Below, one piece after another: positions 5,117 through 59,493 of a DNA stretch of 64,000 bases (within the stretch, counting starts at the first letter, position 1; the number at the start of each line of letters is the position of its first letter). The position numbers were made by a program, and so were the translations under genes. A model generated the notes under the pieces. It had not been told where the DNA came from, did not search any database, and worked only from the letters and a program-made list of their open reading frames with translations. Source of the stretch: Bacillus sp. ISL-51 (lineage in GTDB: Bacteria > Bacillota > Bacilli > Bacillales > Bacillaceae); NCBI RefSeq assembly GCF_018613535.1, contig NZ_JAGGQB010000012.1, positions 62,001-126,000 on the forward strand, read 5' to 3'.

Positions 5117-6088
5117 ATGGAATGGATTAAAAAAATAAGCGGTTTTGCGGGTCAAACCTTTGGCCTATGGGTTATCGTCTTTGCTGTCTTAGGGTTTTCC
5201 TTCCCTGGTTTATTTTCTTGGATCACTTCTTATATGACCGTTTTTCTAGGAATTATAATGTTTGGGATGGGACTTACCCTTCAAGCTGACGATTTTAAAG
5301 AATTAATCAGAAAACCGTGGCACGTTGTCATCGGGGTCTTCGCGCAATTCACGATTATGCCGCTTGCTGCTTTCGGGTTAGCGTTTGGTCTGCATCTTCC
5401 CGCAGAAATTGCAGTCGGCGTCGTCCTTGTCGGGTGCTGTCCGGGCGGCACCGCATCTAATGTCATGACCTTTTTGGCGAAAGGCAATACGGCTTTGTCG
5501 GTTGCCGTCACCACGATATCGACATTGCTCGCACCGGTTTTAACGCCTGTATTGATTATGATGTTTGCCAAAGAGTGGCTGCCTGTTTCTTTCGGTTCGT
5601 TATTTGTTTCGATCATACAAGCTGTATTGCTTCCGATTGTCCTTGGGGTTATCATGAAGCTGTTTTTCAAAAAGCAGGTTGCACAAGCGGTTCACGCGCT
5701 TCCTCTCGTGTCTGTCATCGGCATCGTAGCCATCGTTTCCGCCGTTGTCAGCAGCAATCGTGAGCATCTGCTTCAATCGGGTTTGCTGATTTTTTCTGTT
5801 GTCATTTTACATAACGGAATCGGATATTTGTTAGGCTATCTGGCTGCAAAGCTTTTTAAAATGGATTATTCCTCTCAAAAAGCGATTGCGATAGAAGTCG
5901 GCATGCAAAACTCCGGTCTGGGCGCGGCGCTTGCGACAGCGCACTTCTCCCCCCTTTCAGCCGTGCCGAGCGCGATATTCAGTGTTTGGCATAATCTATC
6001 TGGATCAATTCTCGCAACTTATTGGTCTAAGAAAAAAGAAAAAGATAGTGCCGGAGGGGATGAAACGGCTAAGGTTCCGCTTTCATGA
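5117..6088 (+). CDS. yocS: Bile acid:sodium symporter (BASS) family transporter
   Basis: 323-residue protein with about ten hydrophobic segments. BASS motifs are GCCPGGTASNVMTFLAKGN and the crossing-helix segment EVGMQNSGLGAALATAHF. Family members move organic anions with sodium; Bacillus YocS has no firmly known substrate to my knowledge. AGAAGGAG lies 8-9 nt before the ATG. The hydrophilic tail is short (KKKEKDSAGGD). Its last ~70 bases overlap antisense with the C-terminal end of the hydrolase gene on the other strand. Confidence 0.9.
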   Translation: MEWIKKISGFAGQTFGLWVIVFAVLGFSFPGLFSWITSYMTVFLGIIMFGMGLTLQADDFKELIRKPWHVVIGVFAQFTIMPLAAFGLAFGLHLPAEIAVGVVLVGCCPGGTASNVMTFLAKGNTALSVAVTTISTLLAPVLTPVLIMMFAKEWLPVSFGSLFVSIIQAVLLPIVLGVIMKLFFKKQVAQAVHALPLVSVIGIVAIVSAVVSSNREHLLQSGLLIFSVVILHNGIGYLLGYLAAKLFKMDYSSQKAIAIEVGMQNSGLGAALATAHFSPLSAVPSAIFSVWHNLSGSILATYWSKKKEKDSAGGDETAKVPLS

Positions 6089-50677: not shown

Positions 50678-51763
<1,086 letters not shown>

Positions 51764-52069: not shown

Positions 52070-52495
52070 ATGCCTAAACAGCAAGCAGTAGAGCTAAAAC
52101 CGTTTTTTCATGATAAAACTGTTCTCGTCACAGGCGGGACAGGATCAATCGGAAGCCAAATTGTTAAACGCCTTTTGCTCTTAACACCTAAAGAAGTCAT
52201 TGTGTTCAGCAAAGATGACAGCAAACAATATGTAATGAAGCAAAAATACGCTGATGAAAAAAGACTGTCATTTGTGCTTGGGGATGTCCGTGACTACAGA
52301 AGAGTAAACCAAGTGATGAAAGGTGTTGATATTGTCTTTCACGCCGCTGCGCTGAAGCAGGTTCCGACTTGTGAGGATCACCCGTTTGAAGCCATTCAAA
52401 CCAACCTTATCGGCGGACAAAATGTCGCAGAAGCTGCTTTGCTGCAAGAGGTGACGCATGTGATTAATATCAGTACCGATAAAGCCGTTTATTAG
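52070..52495 (+). CDS. spsM: SpsM N-terminal part, interrupted by the element
   Basis: First ~140 residues of a nucleotide-sugar dehydratase (FlaA1/CapD type) needed for spore-surface polysaccharide. The Rossmann motif VTGGTGSIGSQIVKR binds NAD(P), and NISTDKAV is the catalytic region. The reading frame crosses the left att core and stops three codons into the element (VY, TAG region). It corresponds to yodU in B. subtilis SPbeta lysogens. GGAGGATAAGCC precedes the ATG. Joined at the cores to 58889-59493 it makes a 341-residue protein. Confidence 0.93.
   Translation: MPKQQAVELKPFFHDKTVLVTGGTGSIGSQIVKRLLLLTPKEVIVFSKDDSKQYVMKQKYADEKRLSFVLGDVRDYRRVNQVMKGVDIVFHAAALKQVPTCEDHPFEAIQTNLIGGQNVAEAALLQEVTHVINISTDKAVY
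52475..52490 (+). repeat. attL core of the spsM element
   Basis: ACCGATAAAGCCGTTT, identical to the copy at 58873-58888. It matches the SPbeta core as I recall it (ACAGATAAAGCTGTAT) at 13 of 16 positions. It encodes T-D-K-A-V of SpsM. Confidence 0.93.
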
Positions 52496-52512
52496 GATAT
52501 TAACAATAATAC

Positions 52513-52554
52513 AGAAAAAAGAAAGGGCTATTCTGATTTCTTCAGAGCCCTTTC
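52513..52554 (-). terminator. Terminator at the left end of the element
   Basis: GAAAGGGCT / AGCCCTTTC stem with TTTTTT on the minus strand, overlapping the end of the 56-codon gene. Confidence 0.8.
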
Positions 52555-52698
52555 AAACAATAACTTTGCTATTTCTTGATAAAACACTCCTTCATTTTCA
52601 CTTCCGTATGTCTGCTCAATAAACCTGATTGAATAATTTCTCCTTTGGACGACTTTTATGGTCTTCTTCTTGAATTCTTCATACTCCCCTGAAGGCAT
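52528..52698 (-). CDS. Small protein next to attL, candidate excision factor
   Basis: 56 residues from ATG at 52698 (GGGGG 8 nt upstream): MPSGEYEEFKKKTIKVVQRR ... LLFERALKKSE, basic and helical. The frame is open to a TTG at 52773 (81 aa), but that start lacks a ribosome site. SPbeta's recombination directionality factor SprB is about this size (58 aa). The location at the att site opposite the recombinase suggests the same role; similarity to SprB could not be tested. A terminator overlaps its end. Confidence 0.6.
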   Translation of the reverse strand: MPSGEYEEFKKKTIKVVQRRNYSIRFIEQTYGSENEGVFYQEIAKLLFERALKKSE

Positions 52699-52991
52699 TA
52701 GATCAACCCCCGTTTGCACAGGAGTATTATATGTTGGAATATGGTTGTCTCTTGACTTTTCTTTCTTAATCAAATCATCATCATGAGGAAATCATTAAAG
52801 ATTTGCATACGTGGTCAATTTCAATCATTACATCAGGAGCAGAAAAATGCTGCTCCTTTTTCTCCATCATATTTCTATATATTCAGTGGTATGATTTTCC
52901 ATGTAAAAACCAGCAAGAGGTGTCATACAGGAGTCAGTTAAGAAGAGATTGCCAAAAAAACAAAAGAATTTAATTATGCTCTCCAAGTTCT

Positions 52992-53627
52992 TTATTTATC
53001 AATTTTTGTGAATTTAATTGATGTTGAAAGTTCCATTTCATCCCCATCTTCTGCATTAAATGTGTATTCACTTTCCCAACCACTTCCTAAAACCGTATTC
53101 ACTTTCAAGTCGCCTAAAATACTATGTACAATAAAGTTGCCTGATTCACCGGCAGCTTCAGCTTTATATCTTCCCTCAGGCAAGTCAGATCCTACAGTAA
53201 AGCTACCAGCACCTAAAGTTTTTGGCGCCGCCTTTGCTTTCTCGACTTCCCCTTCAACAGATGCCAATTCGTCATTTTTATCGTCAATGTTACTTTTAAT
53301 TTGCTTTAATTCATCTTTACTGCTTTTAATTTTATTTTTGAGATCGTCAATTTTCTTTTCATTTTCTTTTTTTGAATCTAAAATTTCTTTCGCGTTATCG
53401 AATTCAGATTGTTTGTCCTTTAAATTTTTGTTTACTTCTATTGTTTTATCACTCAATTGAGCCAATTCAGATTTTTTATCTGAGATTTTCTTTGTTAATT
53501 CTTCATACTTTACTTTTTCTTTATCCAATTCTATGGAAGCTCTTGAGTTACCTAGACTATAACTTACACTCATTCCTCCTGCTAGTACTACTAATCCTGC
53601 AACACATCCTATGACTATCTTCTTCAT
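52992..53627 (-). CDS. Exported coiled-coil protein
   Basis: 211 residues: an N-terminal signal or anchor helix (IVIGCVAGLVVLAGGMSVSY), a long Lys/Glu/Asp/Ser-rich coiled coil (about 32-135, heptads KISDKKSELAQLSDK and similar), and a C-terminal beta domain with VGSDLPEGRYKAEA and the end EYTFNAEDGDEMELS. The last domain resembles small extracytoplasmic domains fused to many Firmicute surface proteins. Function unknown; part of the element cargo. Only weak GGGGAATC-type ribosome site upstream. Confidence 0.75.
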   Translation of the reverse strand: MKKIVIGCVAGLVVLAGGMSVSYSLGNSRASIELDKEKVKYEELTKKISDKKSELAQLSDKTIEVNKNLKDKQSEFDNAKEILDSKKENEKKIDDLKNKIKSSKDELKQIKSNIDDKNDELASVEGEVEKAKAAPKTLGAGSFTVGSDLPEGRYKAEAAGESGNFIVHSILGDLKVNTVLGSGWESEYTFNAEDGDEMELSTSIKFTKIDK

Positions 53628-54187
53628 CCATTGATTCCCCTTACAAATTATTTAGGTATTTGTTCCTTATGTCAAGGAACTCAAGACCTAATTGCATTAT
53701 AATTTACCAATATTAACATTTCAATAACATATCACATCCATACCGTTTTCTTTAAAACACTTTCTTTTCTACTATTAGGTTATTTTACTGATAACATATG
53801 GCTTACAAACACATCAATATCATTTTCAGTCCTACAAAAACAGCGATCTTATCTGTGTCAGATTCAATCTTCTCATTTAATCGTTTTGCATCCTTATTTC
53901 CCTTTGAATTATGCAGCTGCAGTCCATGTCGAATAATTTCCAACCATCCATACAATATTTAATCTTTTCATAGGTGTGAAAAGCAATTACTGTAAAATTT
54001 CTGAACCTTTAAATCATGAGTATGGATTGAATATACACTTCTTTTAAGATATAAAAAAGATCGGCAGATGCACGAACATCTGACCGATCTGTAATCGAAT
54101 AGCTCCTTTATAGAATCTGCTTCACAGCATTTCATTTGATTCTAAAGTATTTGTCATTAAGTTTGGCGGATGAATCGAGATTCAACG
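53628..54187. other. Gene-poor stretch within the element
   Basis: About 560 AT-rich bases with no intact gene. On the minus strand around 53803-53980, two neighbouring frames hold protein-like text (for example KGNKDAKRLNEKIESDTDK before a stop at 53803), suggesting a decayed gene; support is weak. The right end holds the chbA terminator. Confidence 0.4.
54052..54090 (-). terminator. Terminator of the LPMO gene
   Basis: AGATCGG-AGATG / CATCT-CCGATCT hairpin followed by TTTTTTA on the minus strand, about 100 bases after the LPMO stop. Confidence 0.8.
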
Positions 54188-54814
54188 TCATTGTTTTAAG
54201 TTTACATCAATAACGTTATAAAAGGCATTAGAGGTGTCCGCAACATCCCACACACCTAGAATGACGTGATAACCGCTGCGATCAGTTGGTACGAAAATCT
54301 TATGAGAAAGATTAGTGTCAGCCTTTGAACCATCGTGGTTGACAGTTCCAATTAATTCAAACTCATCTCTTGTCAAAGGTTTATTGGGATTCCAATTTTT
54401 CTTGGTTATATAATAGTGCCACTTTGATGTGGCGTGAGGAGCAGTATAGTGCCAAGTAAAGGTATTCAGTCCTCCGCGCAAGTCTTGTTTTACCCAATAA
54501 TCTGCAGTCTGCCTGTCTAACCCAAAATCAATTTGACCAGAGCCTCCATTTGCCGACGCAATTTTCCCATCTGGCGGACCCGCGGATGGGAAACCTTTCG
54601 GCCCTTCTACTGATTGCGGACTATCAATGACAGAGCCATATTTTTGTGCAGCTGCCGTCCAACCGATGATTTGTTTTTCTAATGATCCCATGTACGCTCT
54701 GCTGGCGGGTTCTTTTATGTACCCGTGTGCAGATGCATCACCTGCAAATAAAGTTGCACCAATACCTAGAGCAGCTGTCAAAATAGCGCCTTTGATAAAA
54801 CCCTTCATTACCAA
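54188..54814 (-). CDS. chbA: AA10 lytic polysaccharide monooxygenase (chitin-binding protein)
   Basis: 208-residue secreted copper monooxygenase that oxidatively breaks chitin or related polymers. The signal peptide ends ASA, leaving His as the first mature residue (HGYIKEPASRAYM), which with the His in APHATSKWHYYI forms the copper histidine brace. The single-domain length fits Bacillus ChbA/ChbB/BaAA10A. TTG at 54814 has ideal spacing from GGAGG; an ATG two codons later is the alternative. It is carried as cargo in the spsM element. Confidence 0.92.
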   Translation of the reverse strand: MVMKGFIKGAILTAALGIGATLFAGDASAHGYIKEPASRAYMGSLEKQIIGWTAAAQKYGSVIDSPQSVEGPKGFPSAGPPDGKIASANGGSGQIDFGLDRQTADYWVKQDLRGGLNTFTWHYTAPHATSKWHYYITKKNWNPNKPLTRDEFELIGTVNHDGSKADTNLSHKIFVPTDRSGYHVILGVWDVADTSNAFYNVIDVNLKQ

Positions 54815-55004
54815 ATCATCCTCCCTTTGTAAATTTTTATCTTTCCTATTATATAATTCATTACGTGTGGGGTAATTTCCTTCTATATCTTTGACATTGT
54901 AAAACCCAATGTGTTCAGTCCAGGACAGTGAACTTCAGGCTGGCGTTCACTTTAATAATATTCACGGCCCTTTTTTGTGATTTTCGCTTAACAAAGGTTA
55001 TTTG

Positions 55005-55439
55005 CTACCATTCATCCGGTTCATCATGCTCAAAACCATAAAAACCTTTTATCCAAACGTCTCCGCATCCAGCTCCTTTAGTGATCTCTAAATAATGATT
55101 TCTGTTCGCATCGGCTTTCACCTGGTCTGTTGCACTTAGATTTAAATGGTTATCGGTGAAATTCTTCTCGCTAAGTGTAAAAACATAACCTGCTAGAGTA
55201 ATTCGCTGCAGTTTGAAATTCAATGTGCATCCTTCAGCATTGTAAATGGTAAACCTGTAGCCCAGCTTAGTCGGCCAATAATCAAGATTTGTGTCATCAG
55301 ACATAAAGAATCCGGTTTCATTTTCTGTCATTTGAATGCTTATCTTCTGCTCATCTTTTGTAATCTTCGCTGATACATCCCCAATGCTCAAAATCCACAC
55401 CAATAAGACGGCAGCTGCACTCAAAACAATTTTCTTCAT
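55005..55439 (-). CDS. Secreted protein of unknown function (144 aa)
   Basis: Signal peptide (KIVLSAAAVLLVWILSIGDVSA) then a ~120-residue beta-rich domain with two cysteines (EGCTLNF, GAGCGDVW) that may form a disulfide, and an acidic end (FEHDEPDEW). ATG at 55439 follows GGGGGAG by 5 nt. Comparable to small secreted proteins encoded by SPbeta-like phages, but no family was recognised. Confidence 0.75.
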   Translation of the reverse strand: MKKIVLSAAAVLLVWILSIGDVSAKITKDEQKISIQMTENETGFFMSDDTNLDYWPTKLGYRFTIYNAEGCTLNFKLQRITLAGYVFTLSEKNFTDNHLNLSATDQVKADANRNHYLEITKGAGCGDVWIKGFYGFEHDEPDEW

Positions 55440-55520
55440 CCCCACTCCCCCTTTTCCAAATTATACAACATATAAGAAAAAGAGTATGTGAACAATCGGA
55501 GCTCTTTACTATGATCACAT

Positions 55521-55563
55521 AAAACAACGCGGACATTCTGATATGATTGATGTCCGCGTTTTA
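55521..55563. terminator. Hairpin terminator downstream of the FusB-like gene
   Basis: AACGCGGACAT / ATGTCCGCGTT stem of 11 bp with a 14-nt loop and T-rich flanks. Confidence 0.75.
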
Positions 55564-55640
55564 AGTCAAGGTTTAGTGAAAACTTTGCCTCCTCATCTTT
55601 TAACTTCACCTCATTTATGGTGCAAAGTTTAAGAGAAACG

Positions 55641-56291
55641 TCACATTCCCAGTGAGTCTTTGAGAAAAGCTGTTACATATTCGGCATTGGTTATTTTTTT
55701 GTTGCATTCGCTGCTATCGGCGCAAATCAGATTTCCGATGGCCTTGTAGTAATCCGGGTTTTTAGATTGTTTCGCTTTTGTTACGGTGGAAAAATAGACA
55801 ACTTGGCCAAAGCAATTACAGAAGGAACCAACATTATGTTTACTAGCCGATGCAAATTTACATTCAATGCCGACCATTTTTCCGTCCAGCTCATATATAA
55901 TAAATTTTTTATTGGATCTTAGATCGTTCCAGCTTAAATAGGTCAGCTGGCTGTGATCTATCTTTGATAAATCAGGCAGCTTTAATTTTTTATGTTTCGG
56001 AAACATTTTTTTCAGCTGTTGCTCGGTGATTTTTGGAAAGGGGATCAAAAAGGCTGAAAGCCGCTCGATGTATTGATCATATTCGGCATCTGTTTTCAGC
56101 CTGGAAACATCCAGCAAATCTTGCTGATCCAATGTTGCATTTGGAATAAGATCCAAGATTTTGGCATTGGCTAAATCGATCACAGCAGCCAAAACGGTTG
56201 GGGCAACATTCTTCTTTGTACTGTCCTTAATCAAATCAATCTGTTTTTTTATAAAATTCAAATGTTCATTTTTAATAAATTTTTCGGTCAT
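55641..56291 (-). CDS. FusB-like elongation factor G-binding protein
   Basis: 216-residue cytosolic protein. The N-terminal helical half and the C-terminal zinc domain match the FusB/FusC family, which binds EF-G and frees it from stalled or fusidic-acid-blocked ribosomes. Signature: LSWNDLRSNKKFIIYELDGKM, then a metal region with FCNCFG and ICADSSECN. Family members normally have CXXC in the first pair; here it is C-N-C. Part of the spsM element cargo. Resistance to fusidic acid is possible but not shown. Confidence 0.8.
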   Translation of the reverse strand: MTEKFIKNEHLNFIKKQIDLIKDSTKKNVAPTVLAAVIDLANAKILDLIPNATLDQQDLLDVSRLKTDAEYDQYIERLSAFLIPFPKITEQQLKKMFPKHKKLKLPDLSKIDHSQLTYLSWNDLRSNKKFIIYELDGKMVGIECKFASASKHNVGSFCNCFGQVVYFSTVTKAKQSKNPDYYKAIGNLICADSSECNKKITNAEYVTAFLKDSLGM

Positions 56292-56382
56292 TACGCGGCT
56301 CTCCTATCATCTCTTTACACTTATTTTAAAAAATGCAGCGAGTGTCTGAAATGGAGAAAATGACTTAGAAACGTTTTTTACA

Positions 56383-56420
56383 TAAAAAAGCACTGATGAA
56401 AATGCTTCATCAGTGCTTTT
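56383..56420 (-). terminator. Terminator of the CD3324-like gene
   Basis: A 15-bp stem AAAAGCACTGATGAA / TTCATCAGTGCTTTT with a 5-nt loop. Confidence 0.9.
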
Positions 56421-56423
56421 CTC

Positions 56424-56693
56424 TTACTTTTTATGTGAATAAACAATTTTCTTAATGGTTTCGATTGAAAGGTAATATTCCTTCGCTAATTGCGGGATGC
56501 CGGTGCCGCTAATAAAAGAATTTCTAATGGCGGCATTACGGCGGTCAAGCAGCTGTCTCCCTCCACTTGAAGTTCCCCATTTCCGATGCTCCGTTTCCAG
56601 CTTGGGAATGTAAAGGGTTTCCCCCTGAATATATTTTTGAATTTCCACGATTAGTTTTTCAGGTAAAACTTTATTTGCATTCATATATTTCAA
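56424..56693 (-). CDS. CD3324-family helix-turn-helix protein
   Basis: 89 residues. Family text is clear: NANKVLPEKLIVEIQKYIQG, then LYIPK, RKWGTSSGGRQLLDRRNAAI and a C-terminal helix-turn-helix (IPQLAKEYYLSIETIKKIVY). Such proteins are small regulators widespread in Firmicutes. The start is TTG at 56693 after AAGGAGC. In this element it could regulate recombinase or cargo genes (inference). Confidence 0.82.
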   Translation of the reverse strand: MKYMNANKVLPEKLIVEIQKYIQGETLYIPKLETEHRKWGTSSGGRQLLDRRNAAIRNSFISGTGIPQLAKEYYLSIETIKKIVYSHKK

Positions 56694-56759
56694 TTTTGCC
56701 CGCTCCTTATTTTGATTTTGAAAAAAATAAGGTGCAAAGCCAAAATATCAGAAAAGCTG

Positions 56760-56864
56760 TCAGCGATAAAATGAAATGTTTCGCTCCATGCAAAGTATCG
56801 CCTTTCCAATAATAGGCTTTGCATGAGTGGAAGAAATACCAGAAAATCTTAAGTGACTCTCCAT
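56760..56864 (-). CDS. Possible 34-aa peptide
   Basis: ATG at 56864 has a strong ribosome site (AAAGGGGGTG, 9 nt upstream) and opens MESHLRFSGISSTHAKPIIG, ending NISFYR. It contains the inverted repeat at 56787-56825. No family; too short to judge by coding content. Confidence 0.3.
   Translation of the reverse strand: MESHLRFSGISSTHAKPIIGKAILCMERNISFYR
56787..56825. repeat. Inverted repeat in the element control region
   Basis: CATGCAAAG and CTTTGCATG, perfect 9-bp arms 21 bases apart. Could be an operator or an RNA hairpin; no T-run follows. Confidence 0.5.
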
Positions 56865-57169
56865 CTGTATTCACCCCCTTTCATTTATATGATAGCGAAA
56901 TTTTTACAGGAATGGCTTGCCTAAGCGTTGAACGAATCATCCGGCTTCACAGAAAATAGTAATACCTCTGCCATCACGAAAAAGTAAACCTTTAGGCGAT
57001 ACGGCCATGTGAAAATGAAAATAATGGAGGCAAAACCGTCATATTTTTAGAGGTAACTGTTTATTTTAAAGATAAATTTGGCTCAATTATTACAAAAAGA
57101 TAAAACTCAACCGATCAATTTCAGAAATGGTGAGGCCAAACAAAGAAGGGCTGACTTACAAAGCTTACT

Positions 57170-57177
57170 GATATAAT
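57170..57177 (+). promoter_or_regulatory. Extended -10 promoter of sprA
   Basis: TGATATAAT (TGN-TATAAT) about 45 bases before the recombinase start; no good -35 is present, as is usual for extended -10 promoters. Confidence 0.5.
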
Positions 57178-57220
57178 AATCAGTTTTACTATCAAAACAC
57201 AAATCGGGAGGTGTGTTTTT

Positions 57221-58897
57221 TTGGAGTTAAAGCATATTGTAAATTCATATGATATCACAAATATTCTCGGGTATCTCAGACGTTCGCGACAAGATATGGA
57301 ACGTGAAAAAAGAACAGGCGAAGATACACTCACAGAACAAAAAGAGCTGATGAACAAAGTTCTAGCCGCAACTCAAATCCCATACGAACTAAGAATGGAG
57401 ATCGGTTCAGGTGAAAATATTGAAGGCCGGCCTGTTTTTAAAGACTGTTTAAGGGATCTTGAAAATGGAAAATATCAAGCGATCGCAGTCAAAGAAATCA
57501 CTCGTCTAAGCAGAGGAAGCTATAGTGATGCCGGACAAATTGTTAATCTCCTTCAAAGTAACCGCCTGCTCATTATTACTCCTTATAAAGTATATGACCC
57601 AAGAAACCCTGTAGACATGAGACAAATCCGTTTTGAGTTATTTATGGCCAGAGAAGAGTTTGAAATGACAAGAGAGCGAATGACAGGAGCTAAATACACT
57701 TATGCCGCGCAGGGGAAGTGGATATCCGGTCTGGCTCCGTATGGCTACAAATTAAATAAGAAAACATCACGACTGGAGATAGTTGAAGAAAGAGCAAAAG
57801 TGGTTCAATTAATCTTCCATCTCTTTTTACACGGGTTGAATGGAAAGGATTATAGTTACACAGCAATCGCTTCTCACTTAACACATTTACAAATCCCCAC
57901 TCCAACTGAGAAAAAGAAATGGAATCCATACACCATTAAAGCGATTCTTCAAAATGAAGCATATATCGGTACTGTTAAATATAAAGTCAGAGAAAAAACA
58001 AAAAACGGTAAAAGAACAATAAGGCCTGAAAAGGAACAAATTACAGTTCCGGATGCACATCCCCCTATCATTGACAACGAACAATTTGGGCAGGTACAAA
58101 CAAAGATTGAAAACAAAATTCCCCTTCTTCCTAACAGAAAACGTTTTGAATTAAATGAACTGGCCGGTGTATGTACTTGCGCTGAATGCGGTTCTTCATT
58201 GTCTAAATACGAAGCCGTAAGAAAGCGCCGAAAGAAGAATGGTACAGAAAGTGTTTATCATGTGAAATTACTTCGATGTAAAAATAACAAGTGTATAAAT
58301 GTCAGATACAATGATGTTGAAGAGGCGATTTTGGATTATGTAAAGTCTCTAAAAGCATTAAATGATACCGACCTTTCAAGACACATCCAATCAATAATTC
58401 ATGCACATGAAAGCAAAAAGAACATGAAATCAAAAAAACAAATGAATGAACAATTCGAGCAGCGCAAAAAGGAGCTTCAACAAAAATTGAATTTTATTTT
58501 TGATAAATATGAAAGCGGCATTTATTCAGATGAAGTTTTCTTACAAAGAAAGTCGGCTTTGGATCAAGACATTCAAGAACTTCAAAAAGCTAAGGATGAA
58601 ATTAATGGCTTAGCCCATATTAAGTCAGGAATCGATCTTGATCAGTTTAGAGACAATATGCAAAATGCTGTAGAGATATATAAAACTTCAGAAAGCAAAG
58701 AAGAAAAAAACAAGCTCCTCAGAATTATCCTTCAAAAAGTAATTGTCAAGATGACTGCCAAGAGAAAAGGCCCGGCCCCGGCTCAGTTTGAAATTCTTCC
58801 TATTCTCAGGTTTACCTTTTTAACAGGAGATCCTATTCTGATTGAACAAACTCATTGTTTATATCCTAAAAAACCGATAAAGCCGTTTCCCCGGTAA
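57221..58897 (+). CDS. sprA: SprA-type large serine recombinase
   Basis: 558-residue integrase/excisionase. Order: N-terminal catalytic domain with nucleophile Ser22 in [14 protein letters not shown] and arginines in [14 protein letters not shown]; recombinase domain ([10 protein letters not shown] ... [18 protein letters not shown]); zinc ribbon with CTCAECG and CKNNKC; long coiled coil (about 405-470). It closely resembles SPbeta SprA, which recombines attL x attR in sporulating mother cells to rebuild spsM. TTG start after GGGAGGTG. Its last codons (PIKPFPR) cover the right att core and host DNA. Confidence 0.93.
58873..58888 (+). repeat. attR core of the spsM element
   Basis: ACCGATAAAGCCGTTT, same as 52475-52490. 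It lies inside the 3' end of sprA and at the junction with the rest of spsM. Confidence 0.93.
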
Positions 58898-59493
58898 ACA
58901 CAATGGGAGCCACTAAGCTTTTGTCCGAGAAACTGTTCCATCAGGCGAACCATCATGTACAAAACCGGGGGACGGTGTTTTGCTCGGTTCGTTTCGGCAA
59001 TGTGCTCGGTTCACGCGGTTCCGTTATCCCTATTTTATTTGCACAGATGATGGCAGGCGGTCCGCTCACCATTACCGACAAAAACATGACAAGGTTTTTT
59101 ATGTCGATTGATGACGCGGCAACCTTAACTTTACAATCCGCAGCAATCACAAAGGGCGGAGAAACGTTTATTTTCAAAATGGAATCATTAATGCTTGAAG
59201 AACTGCTTCACGGCTTTGAAGAATATGCCGCACAGCACGGGCTCCCGCGCCCTGCCGCTGTTGAAGTTGGAAAGCGGCCCGGTGAGAAGCTGCATGAAGA
59301 GCTGATCTCCCCTCACGAAACAGAATCTTTGTATGAATGGGGTAATCTATACGCGATATTGCCGGATCCTGCCAAACACCCGGAATTTAAGAAAGTCGGT
59401 CTGACTGGATATCAATCTGATCAAGCTCCGCTGATTACAAAAGACAGAATAGCGAAGATTATCGAATCATTGCATGAAGAAAAAAAAGCGTAG
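58889..59493 (+). CDS. spsM: SpsM C-terminal part, separated by the element
   Basis: Continues the SpsM frame after the core: [36 protein letters not shown] and [12 protein letters not shown], the substrate-binding half of a FlaA1/CapD-type nucleotide-sugar dehydratase. It corresponds to ypqP in SPbeta lysogens. Split as it is, it lacks the Rossmann domain and a proper start (first ATG 58903), so it should be inactive until excision joins the halves. Confidence 0.92.

Follow-up and report, generated by a model that had tools for sequence, protein, structure and literature searches.

A 6.4-kb SPbeta-type element splits spsM in Bacillus sp. ISL-51 and in all likelihood acts as a sporulation switch

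We analyzed a stretch of 64,000 nucleotides from Bacillus sp. ISL-51 (hereafter the window), in which the gene spsM is interrupted by a 6.4-kb element carrying the recombination system of the Bacillus subtilis prophage SPbeta. Both recombination genes (sprA and sprB), both att sites with their arms, an open joined spsM frame, an empty site in a relative, and constraint on the spsM halves were observed directly. In all likelihood the element is a switch: SprB-directed excision by SprA in the sporulating mother cell would rebuild spsM. Switches of this kind in spsM have been described before from close relatives, in the text of two reports (Abe et al. 2014, PMC4191935; PMC6957869). The exact 6.4-kb version was not found in the literature text, a reach that leaves figures and supplements (Abe 2014 Fig 2A, Table S1) outside.

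Results

Split spsM and its attachment sites

The insert measures 6,398 bp (core-to-core spacing) and is bounded by identical 16-bp cores, ACCGATAAAGCCGTTT (Table 1). As in an SPbeta-type spsM element, it lies in spsM at the SPbeta core, given as ACAGATAAAGCTGTAT in the text of PMC8270828, with the core directly repeated. The 3.6-Mb assembly contains only two exact copies of ACCGATAAAGCCGTTT, namely the two cores of the element. Allowing up to two mismatches, three core matches were observed in the window against 0.05 expected from shuffling; the third, at 5487 (two mismatches), falls within a transporter-like frame, in antisense orientation, and looks like chance. On the predicted circle an inverted repeat flanks the core, and the SPbeta att site likewise has annotated repeats next to it.

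When 52070-52490 is joined to 58889-59493, the resulting 1,026 nucleotides read as a single 341-codon frame followed by a stop, i.e., a full-length spsM. We compared the window with 44 genomes of the genus (designated by G and a number, G000 being the genome of ISL-51 itself). The best empty-site control is G040, whose unoccupied spsM reads AATATCAGT-ACCGATAAAGCCGTTT-CCCCGGTAAAC, exactly the predicted junction. Intact spsM also has 341 codons in all six relatives with an uninterrupted gene that were read, and the joined halves of the split gene encode 341 amino acids in the window, G016, G002, G026, and G035.

Recombination genes

SprA is a large serine integrase (profile match to phrog_95, integrase) at the right end of the element. 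It is 74%-79% identical to SprA of seven SPbeta-group records (74% to SPbeta, 79% to Goe12), and its residues 1-534 align with the solved YokA structure of SPbeta. The directionality factor SprB lies at the left end. The 81-residue open reading frame that contains it (52528-52773) shows 56%-69% identity to the same number of SPbeta-group records (58% to SPbeta, 69% to Goe12), and the SprB part alone is 53% identical to SPbeta. The start of this frame is too early for SprB; the ATG indicated by the alignment yields 56 residues, as annotated in Goe12. Thus sprB and sprA occupy opposite ends of the element, each adjoining an att site, which is the layout of SPbeta-group records.

The first 23 residues of the 81-residue frame correspond to the last 23 of SPbeta YotM (70%, E 4e-7), and in SPbeta yotM is the gene upstream of sprB. 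Within this yotM tail lie both a sigma-E/sigma-K type -10, CATATAAT, invariant at 8/8 columns, and a second invariant block, AGTCAAGAGAC (seven records, six of them realigned). According to the text of PMC4191935, the sporulation promoter of SPbeta sprB starts transcription 20 nucleotides before the gene and has a perfect -10 and an imperfect -35. A scan for sigma-70 promoters gave 21 hits where 22.2 were expected from shuffling, and Rfam gave no match at the gathering threshold between 50000 and 62000.

An earlier note on this DNA had described an insert between identical cores, flanks that join into an uninterrupted 341-codon frame, and a SprA-type recombinase inside. All of this was confirmed, the frame also by the G040 junction and the six intact relatives. 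The sprB gene at the left end had not been recognized.

Table 1. Features of the spsM element and its flanks (positions in the window)
Feature	Position	Strand	Remarks
spsM 5' half (yodU part)	52070..52490	+	extends through the left core; frame stops at 52495 within the element
attL core ACCGATAAAGCCGTTT	52475..52490	+	repeat search
attP inverted repeat, left arm	52487..52507	no strand	partner 58854-58874, 90% complementary
sprB, recombination directionality factor, 56 residues	52528..52698	-	alignment; length equals the Goe12 coding sequence
yotM tail, 23 codons	52705..52773	-	matches SPbeta YotM residues 173-195, 70%
CATATAAT, sigma-E/sigma-K type -10 of sprB	52726..52733	-	invariant in 7 aligned records
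211-residue protein, apparent signal peptide and coiled coil	52992..53627	-	G016 has an unrelated 115-residue protein here
AA10 lytic polysaccharide monooxygenase (LPMO)	54188..54814	-	profile search
146-residue apparently secreted protein	55005..55445	-	related to a gene of SPbeta-like phages (Goe12/13, SPbetaL2; 54%)
EF-G-binding protein, FusB/FBP family	55641..56291	-	far under cut-offs for named resistance proteins
89-residue CD3324/Mor-like helix-turn-helix protein	56424..56693	-	in the B. nakamurai element the gene is broken across two frames
sprA, large serine integrase, 558 residues	57221..58897	+	frame passes over the attR core and stops in spsM DNA
attP inverted repeat, right arm	58854..58874	no strand	inverted-repeat pairing with left arm
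attR core ACCGATAAAGCCGTTT	58873..58888	+	repeat search
spsM 3' half (ypqP part)	58889..59493	+	joined frame and relatives

Constraint on spsM and the element genes

We quantified nonsynonymous and synonymous divergence (dN and dS) between G000 and G016 (B. nakamurai NRRL B-41091), both of which have a split spsM. For the joined gene, dN is 0.013 and dS 0.124, a ratio of 0.10; by this measure both halves of spsM look like parts of a gene in use. The ratios of the element genes are 0.13 for sprA, 0.06 for the LPMO, 0.09 for the 146-residue protein, and 0.15 for the EF-G-binding protein. It is likely that the element was already present in the common ancestor of the two strains. Synonymous distances in the element (0.25-0.37 for these four genes, 0.03 for sprB) mostly lie above those of the host, where five of six stretches fall between 0.08 and 0.20 (spsM halves 0.08 and 0.15, msrB 0.15, msrA 0.16, luciferase-like monooxygenase 0.20; the sixth, phytase, 0.43). 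Since element genes are mostly more diverged than host stretches, element DNA may have been exchanged after the hosts split.

Related elements in genomes and in circular records

A match to SprA of any kind occurs in 28 of the 44 genomes, at 73% or more in only five, ISL-51 included. Both spsM halves are present at 87% identity or more in 11 genomes, six with an open frame and five with a split gene. The splits measure 6.4 kb in ISL-51, 6.35 kb in G016, 4.5 kb in G002, 15.1 kb in G026 (B. siamensis KCTC 13613), and 134 kb in G035. Decayed copies of spsM are found in G032 and G038, and small fragments in G039 and G011. The cores of the G002 element (at 1457 and 5981 of L040) differ at two positions, and its joined frame still has 341 codons. 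The G016 element has the LPMO, the 146-residue protein, the EF-G-binding protein, sprA, and sprB in common with the window element, and for its 115-residue protein the G002 element has an 83% identical counterpart. The comparison indicates that spsM elements are mosaics between conserved ends.

Searching 72,556 plasmid records (SprA at E below 1e-100), we found SprA encoded by five, all of which also encode SprB. One, linear and 37.7 kb long, is a fragment of B. subtilis SPbeta that spans attP. The other four are circular B. velezensis records, with accessions NZ_CP074688, NZ_CP115605, NZ_AP024604, and NZ_CP079101 and sizes of 13.0, 18.2, 20.3, and 32.0 kb; the 32.0-kb circle is larger than the range of 4-20 kb that the text of PMC6957869 gives for spsM elements of the group. 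In each circle sprA and sprB face each other across a single core, identical to that of the window and accompanied by arms, so that the circle is closed at attP. Of the 15.1-kb element of B. siamensis, the circles cover between 7.5 and 12.7 kb, and a search for spsM DNA in the four found none. PLSDB gives all four as non-mobilizable, with no replicon type shown, and no replication gene is so named among their listed genes (the gene table is incomplete). For KOF112, the text of PMC8281069 reports DNA from a 1-day culture assembled as two circular contigs. The four B. velezensis "plasmids" are probably excised spsM elements deposited as plasmids.

In a sprA tree of 17 rows (13 of them different), SPbeta is joined by the copy of B. 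siamensis and by four of B. velezensis (100/100; identity 90%-91% for the three compared). SprA of the window and of B. nakamurai is 72%-76% identical to the SPbeta, B. siamensis, and B. velezensis copies. The window pairs with B. nakamurai (100/99), the nearest sequences by path being Goe12-type phages (80%), and G002 forms a long branch beside these two (94/91, unsure). In the spsM tree, G002 and G026 neighbor G040, with the window and G016 beside them. Because the two trees group the sequences differently, the element lineages do not follow their hosts, and by these trees there is more than one capture of spsM elements.

The sprA frame across the crossover site

The sprA stop lies 24 nucleotides before the core in G035, 11 nucleotides before it in G002, and inside it in G026. 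In the window and G016 it lies beyond the core, in spsM DNA, with 558 residues encoded in both. Because the crossover site lies within the gene, the encoded C terminus would differ after excision: On the predicted circle the frame extends from 558 to 599 residues in the window and from 558 to 570 in G016. The title of a 2020 paper, as cited in PMC8270828, states that the C-terminal end of SprA may help set direction. If it does, the integrase could be edited by its own reaction, the altered SprA making spsM rebuilding one-way, although we consider this a very long shot; the change may be neutral drift.

Cargo genes and the history of the LPMO

The earlier note spoke of secreted and ribosome-related cargo, and this description fits: the LPMO and the 146- and 211-residue proteins are apparently secreted (signal peptides judged by eye), and the EF-G-binding protein of the FusB family is translation-related. 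The latter scores 65-73 bits, whereas the cut-offs of named resistance families are 375-450; it has a 91% match in G016 and matches of 31%-37% in ten more of the genomes. The 211-residue protein is matched in three genomes (its own, G028 at 45%, and marginally G002) and has distant phage relatives. Its weak matches to tail and lysis profiles fall in its coiled coil, as do the only PADLOC matches among the five proteins scanned. Phage-record relatives of the LPMO (at most 51%) and of the EF-G-binding protein (at most 35%) are also distant. At E 1e-3 the phage collection contains three records related to the 146-residue protein, all from SPbeta-like phages.

The LPMO is matched in 21 of the 44 genomes, at 83% or more in 12 (ISL-51 and G016 included), and lies within an spsM element in ISL-51 and G016 only. 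In G040, G002, and G026 it stands beside a luciferase-like monooxygenase gene, a neighbor that G000 and G016 possess without the LPMO. A simple relocation from this old chromosomal site is opposed by the synonymous distances: dS of the element LPMO is 0.42-0.51 to B. subtilis-group copies (four pairs) versus 0.88-0.96 to those of G040, G002, and G026 (four pairs), an order opposite to that of spsM. Because these distances place the element copy nearer to the B. subtilis group, we favor a horizontal replacement from that side. LPMO trees, built from 12 of the 16 rows (without four distant ones) and from all 16, give weak support to the root and to the placement of the element copies; in the 16-row protein tree the G016 copy groups with G040, G002, and G026 (80/89). 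The LPMO gene of this lineage sits on DNA expected to leave the mother-cell chromosome.

An FMN-dependent dehydrogenase gene carried by the G002 element (L040:2406-3560) adjoins the luciferase-like monooxygenase gene in G000 and G016 (L065:3648-4001), and the chromosomal copy of G016 has one internal stop. With the LPMO, two genes known from a single chromosomal spot occur in spsM elements of separate lineages, and these two cases alone suggest gene traffic between the monooxygenase spot and spsM elements.

In a phytase-like gene on the minus strand (51680-51760), the signal-peptide stretch by eye looks shortened and joined to ETEPVD when set against B. nakamurai DNA, in which the frames of the signal and of the mature protein seem not to be in register (also by eye).

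Discussion

Proposed mechanism

We propose that SprA alone keeps the element integrated. In the sporulating mother cell, sigma-E/sigma-K would switch on the sprB promoter in the yotM tail, and SprB would turn SprA to recombination between attL and attR. The element would leave as a circle, and the rebuilt 341-codon spsM would serve the spore-surface polysaccharide, while spores would retain the integrated copy. With the upstream operon of the phage lost, DNA damage is not expected to trigger excision, which very probably takes place in the mother cell and not in response to damage. For this strain we infer expression, timing, and excision.

Alternative explanations

Several observations weigh against an active switch. 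No -35 was recognizable upstream of the conserved -10 of sprB in this element, SprA departs from SPbeta SprA past about residue 534, SprB has a dN/dS of 0.80 (on four changes only, and hence uninformative), and the low dN/dS ratio found for spsM is undated, as dS of the element mostly exceeds that of the host. If the element were a dead remnant that no longer excises, spsM would be broken and its halves would be decaying, as in the decayed genes of G032 and G038; the altered cores of G002 would also suit such a fate. Nevertheless, in the window sprA and sprB are open, the cores are identical, and the spsM halves are open and constrained, and related elements occur as closed circles, so that a remnant appears very improbable. 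A further explanation, which overlaps with the switch, is a mobile cassette whose circle moves between strains and reintegrates by SprA, the rebuilding of spsM being a side effect. Both the sprA tree and the LPMO distances are out of line with the hosts, which speaks for it, but no transfer gene is present among the nine open reading frames scanned in the element, and the spsM halves are conserved as if used; we regard this explanation as possible but doubtful.

As to origin, we think it likely that an SPbeta-type prophage shrank to attL-sprB-cargo-sprA-attR. None of the nine scanned frames is a credible gene for structure, replication, or lysis, such as an active SPbeta prophage has. The claim of the earlier note that the element has no phage genes is nevertheless incorrect, given that sprA, sprB, the yotM tail, and the 146-residue gene are all SPbeta-type. 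Alternatively, the SprA/SprB unit may have been taken over by a mobile element of non-phage type, such as gin in B. cereus gerE. Recombination units are exchangeable between elements according to the text of PMC6957869, most of the cargo is not SPbeta-like, and cargo varies between related elements. In such a non-phage element, however, phage-derived genes would be confined to recombination, whereas here the yotM tail is contiguous with sprB and the 146-residue gene is that of an SPbeta-like phage. A swap that took the yotM tail along would look the same; on balance a borrowed unit seems unlikely. Of the reading in the earlier note, a compact spsM switch doing the job of SPbeta is supported. 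An "alternative" switch is not, the element having the SprA/SprB att system, the same site, and a truncated yotM beside sprB.

Comparison with known systems

The element shares its spsM target, core position, SprA/SprB, and arms with SPbeta of B. subtilis 168; SPbeta, however, is 134 kb long, infectious, and damage-inducible, whereas the 6.4-kb element is without the operon upstream of sprB. In B. cereus ATCC10987, gin likewise rebuilds a sporulation gene, gerE, through a serine recombinase and a directionality factor, but with GirC/GirX and at another site, and the text of PMC5595907 describes it as non-viral, whereas the window element has SPbeta remnants. Closest are the SPbeta-like remnants with sprA and sprB that the text of Abe et al. 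(2014, PMC4191935) reports in eight B. amyloliquefaciens strains. FZB42 and the seven others have short elements in the same gene, with sprA and sprB at the ends and most phage genes lost. The version in the window differs by its LPMO, FusB-family, and 211-residue cargo, and while excision is shown for FZB42, only in sporulation, here we infer it. The new details are the attP-closed B. velezensis circles, the LPMO carried on the element in this lineage only, and a sprA that reads through the crossover.

According to the same text, sprA and sprB suffice for excision in sporulation but not for mitomycin-induced excision. The laboratory construct SPmini has sprB, sprA, and att with the other SPbeta genes removed, as in the window element, and excises in sporulation and not with mitomycin (Abe et al. 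2014). The window element is natural and bears cargo; what it retains are the att sites, sprA, sprB, and a short promoter stretch in yotM. It would be a natural counterpart of SPmini: a gene switch timed to sporulation, left over from a phage, with its cargo exchanged.

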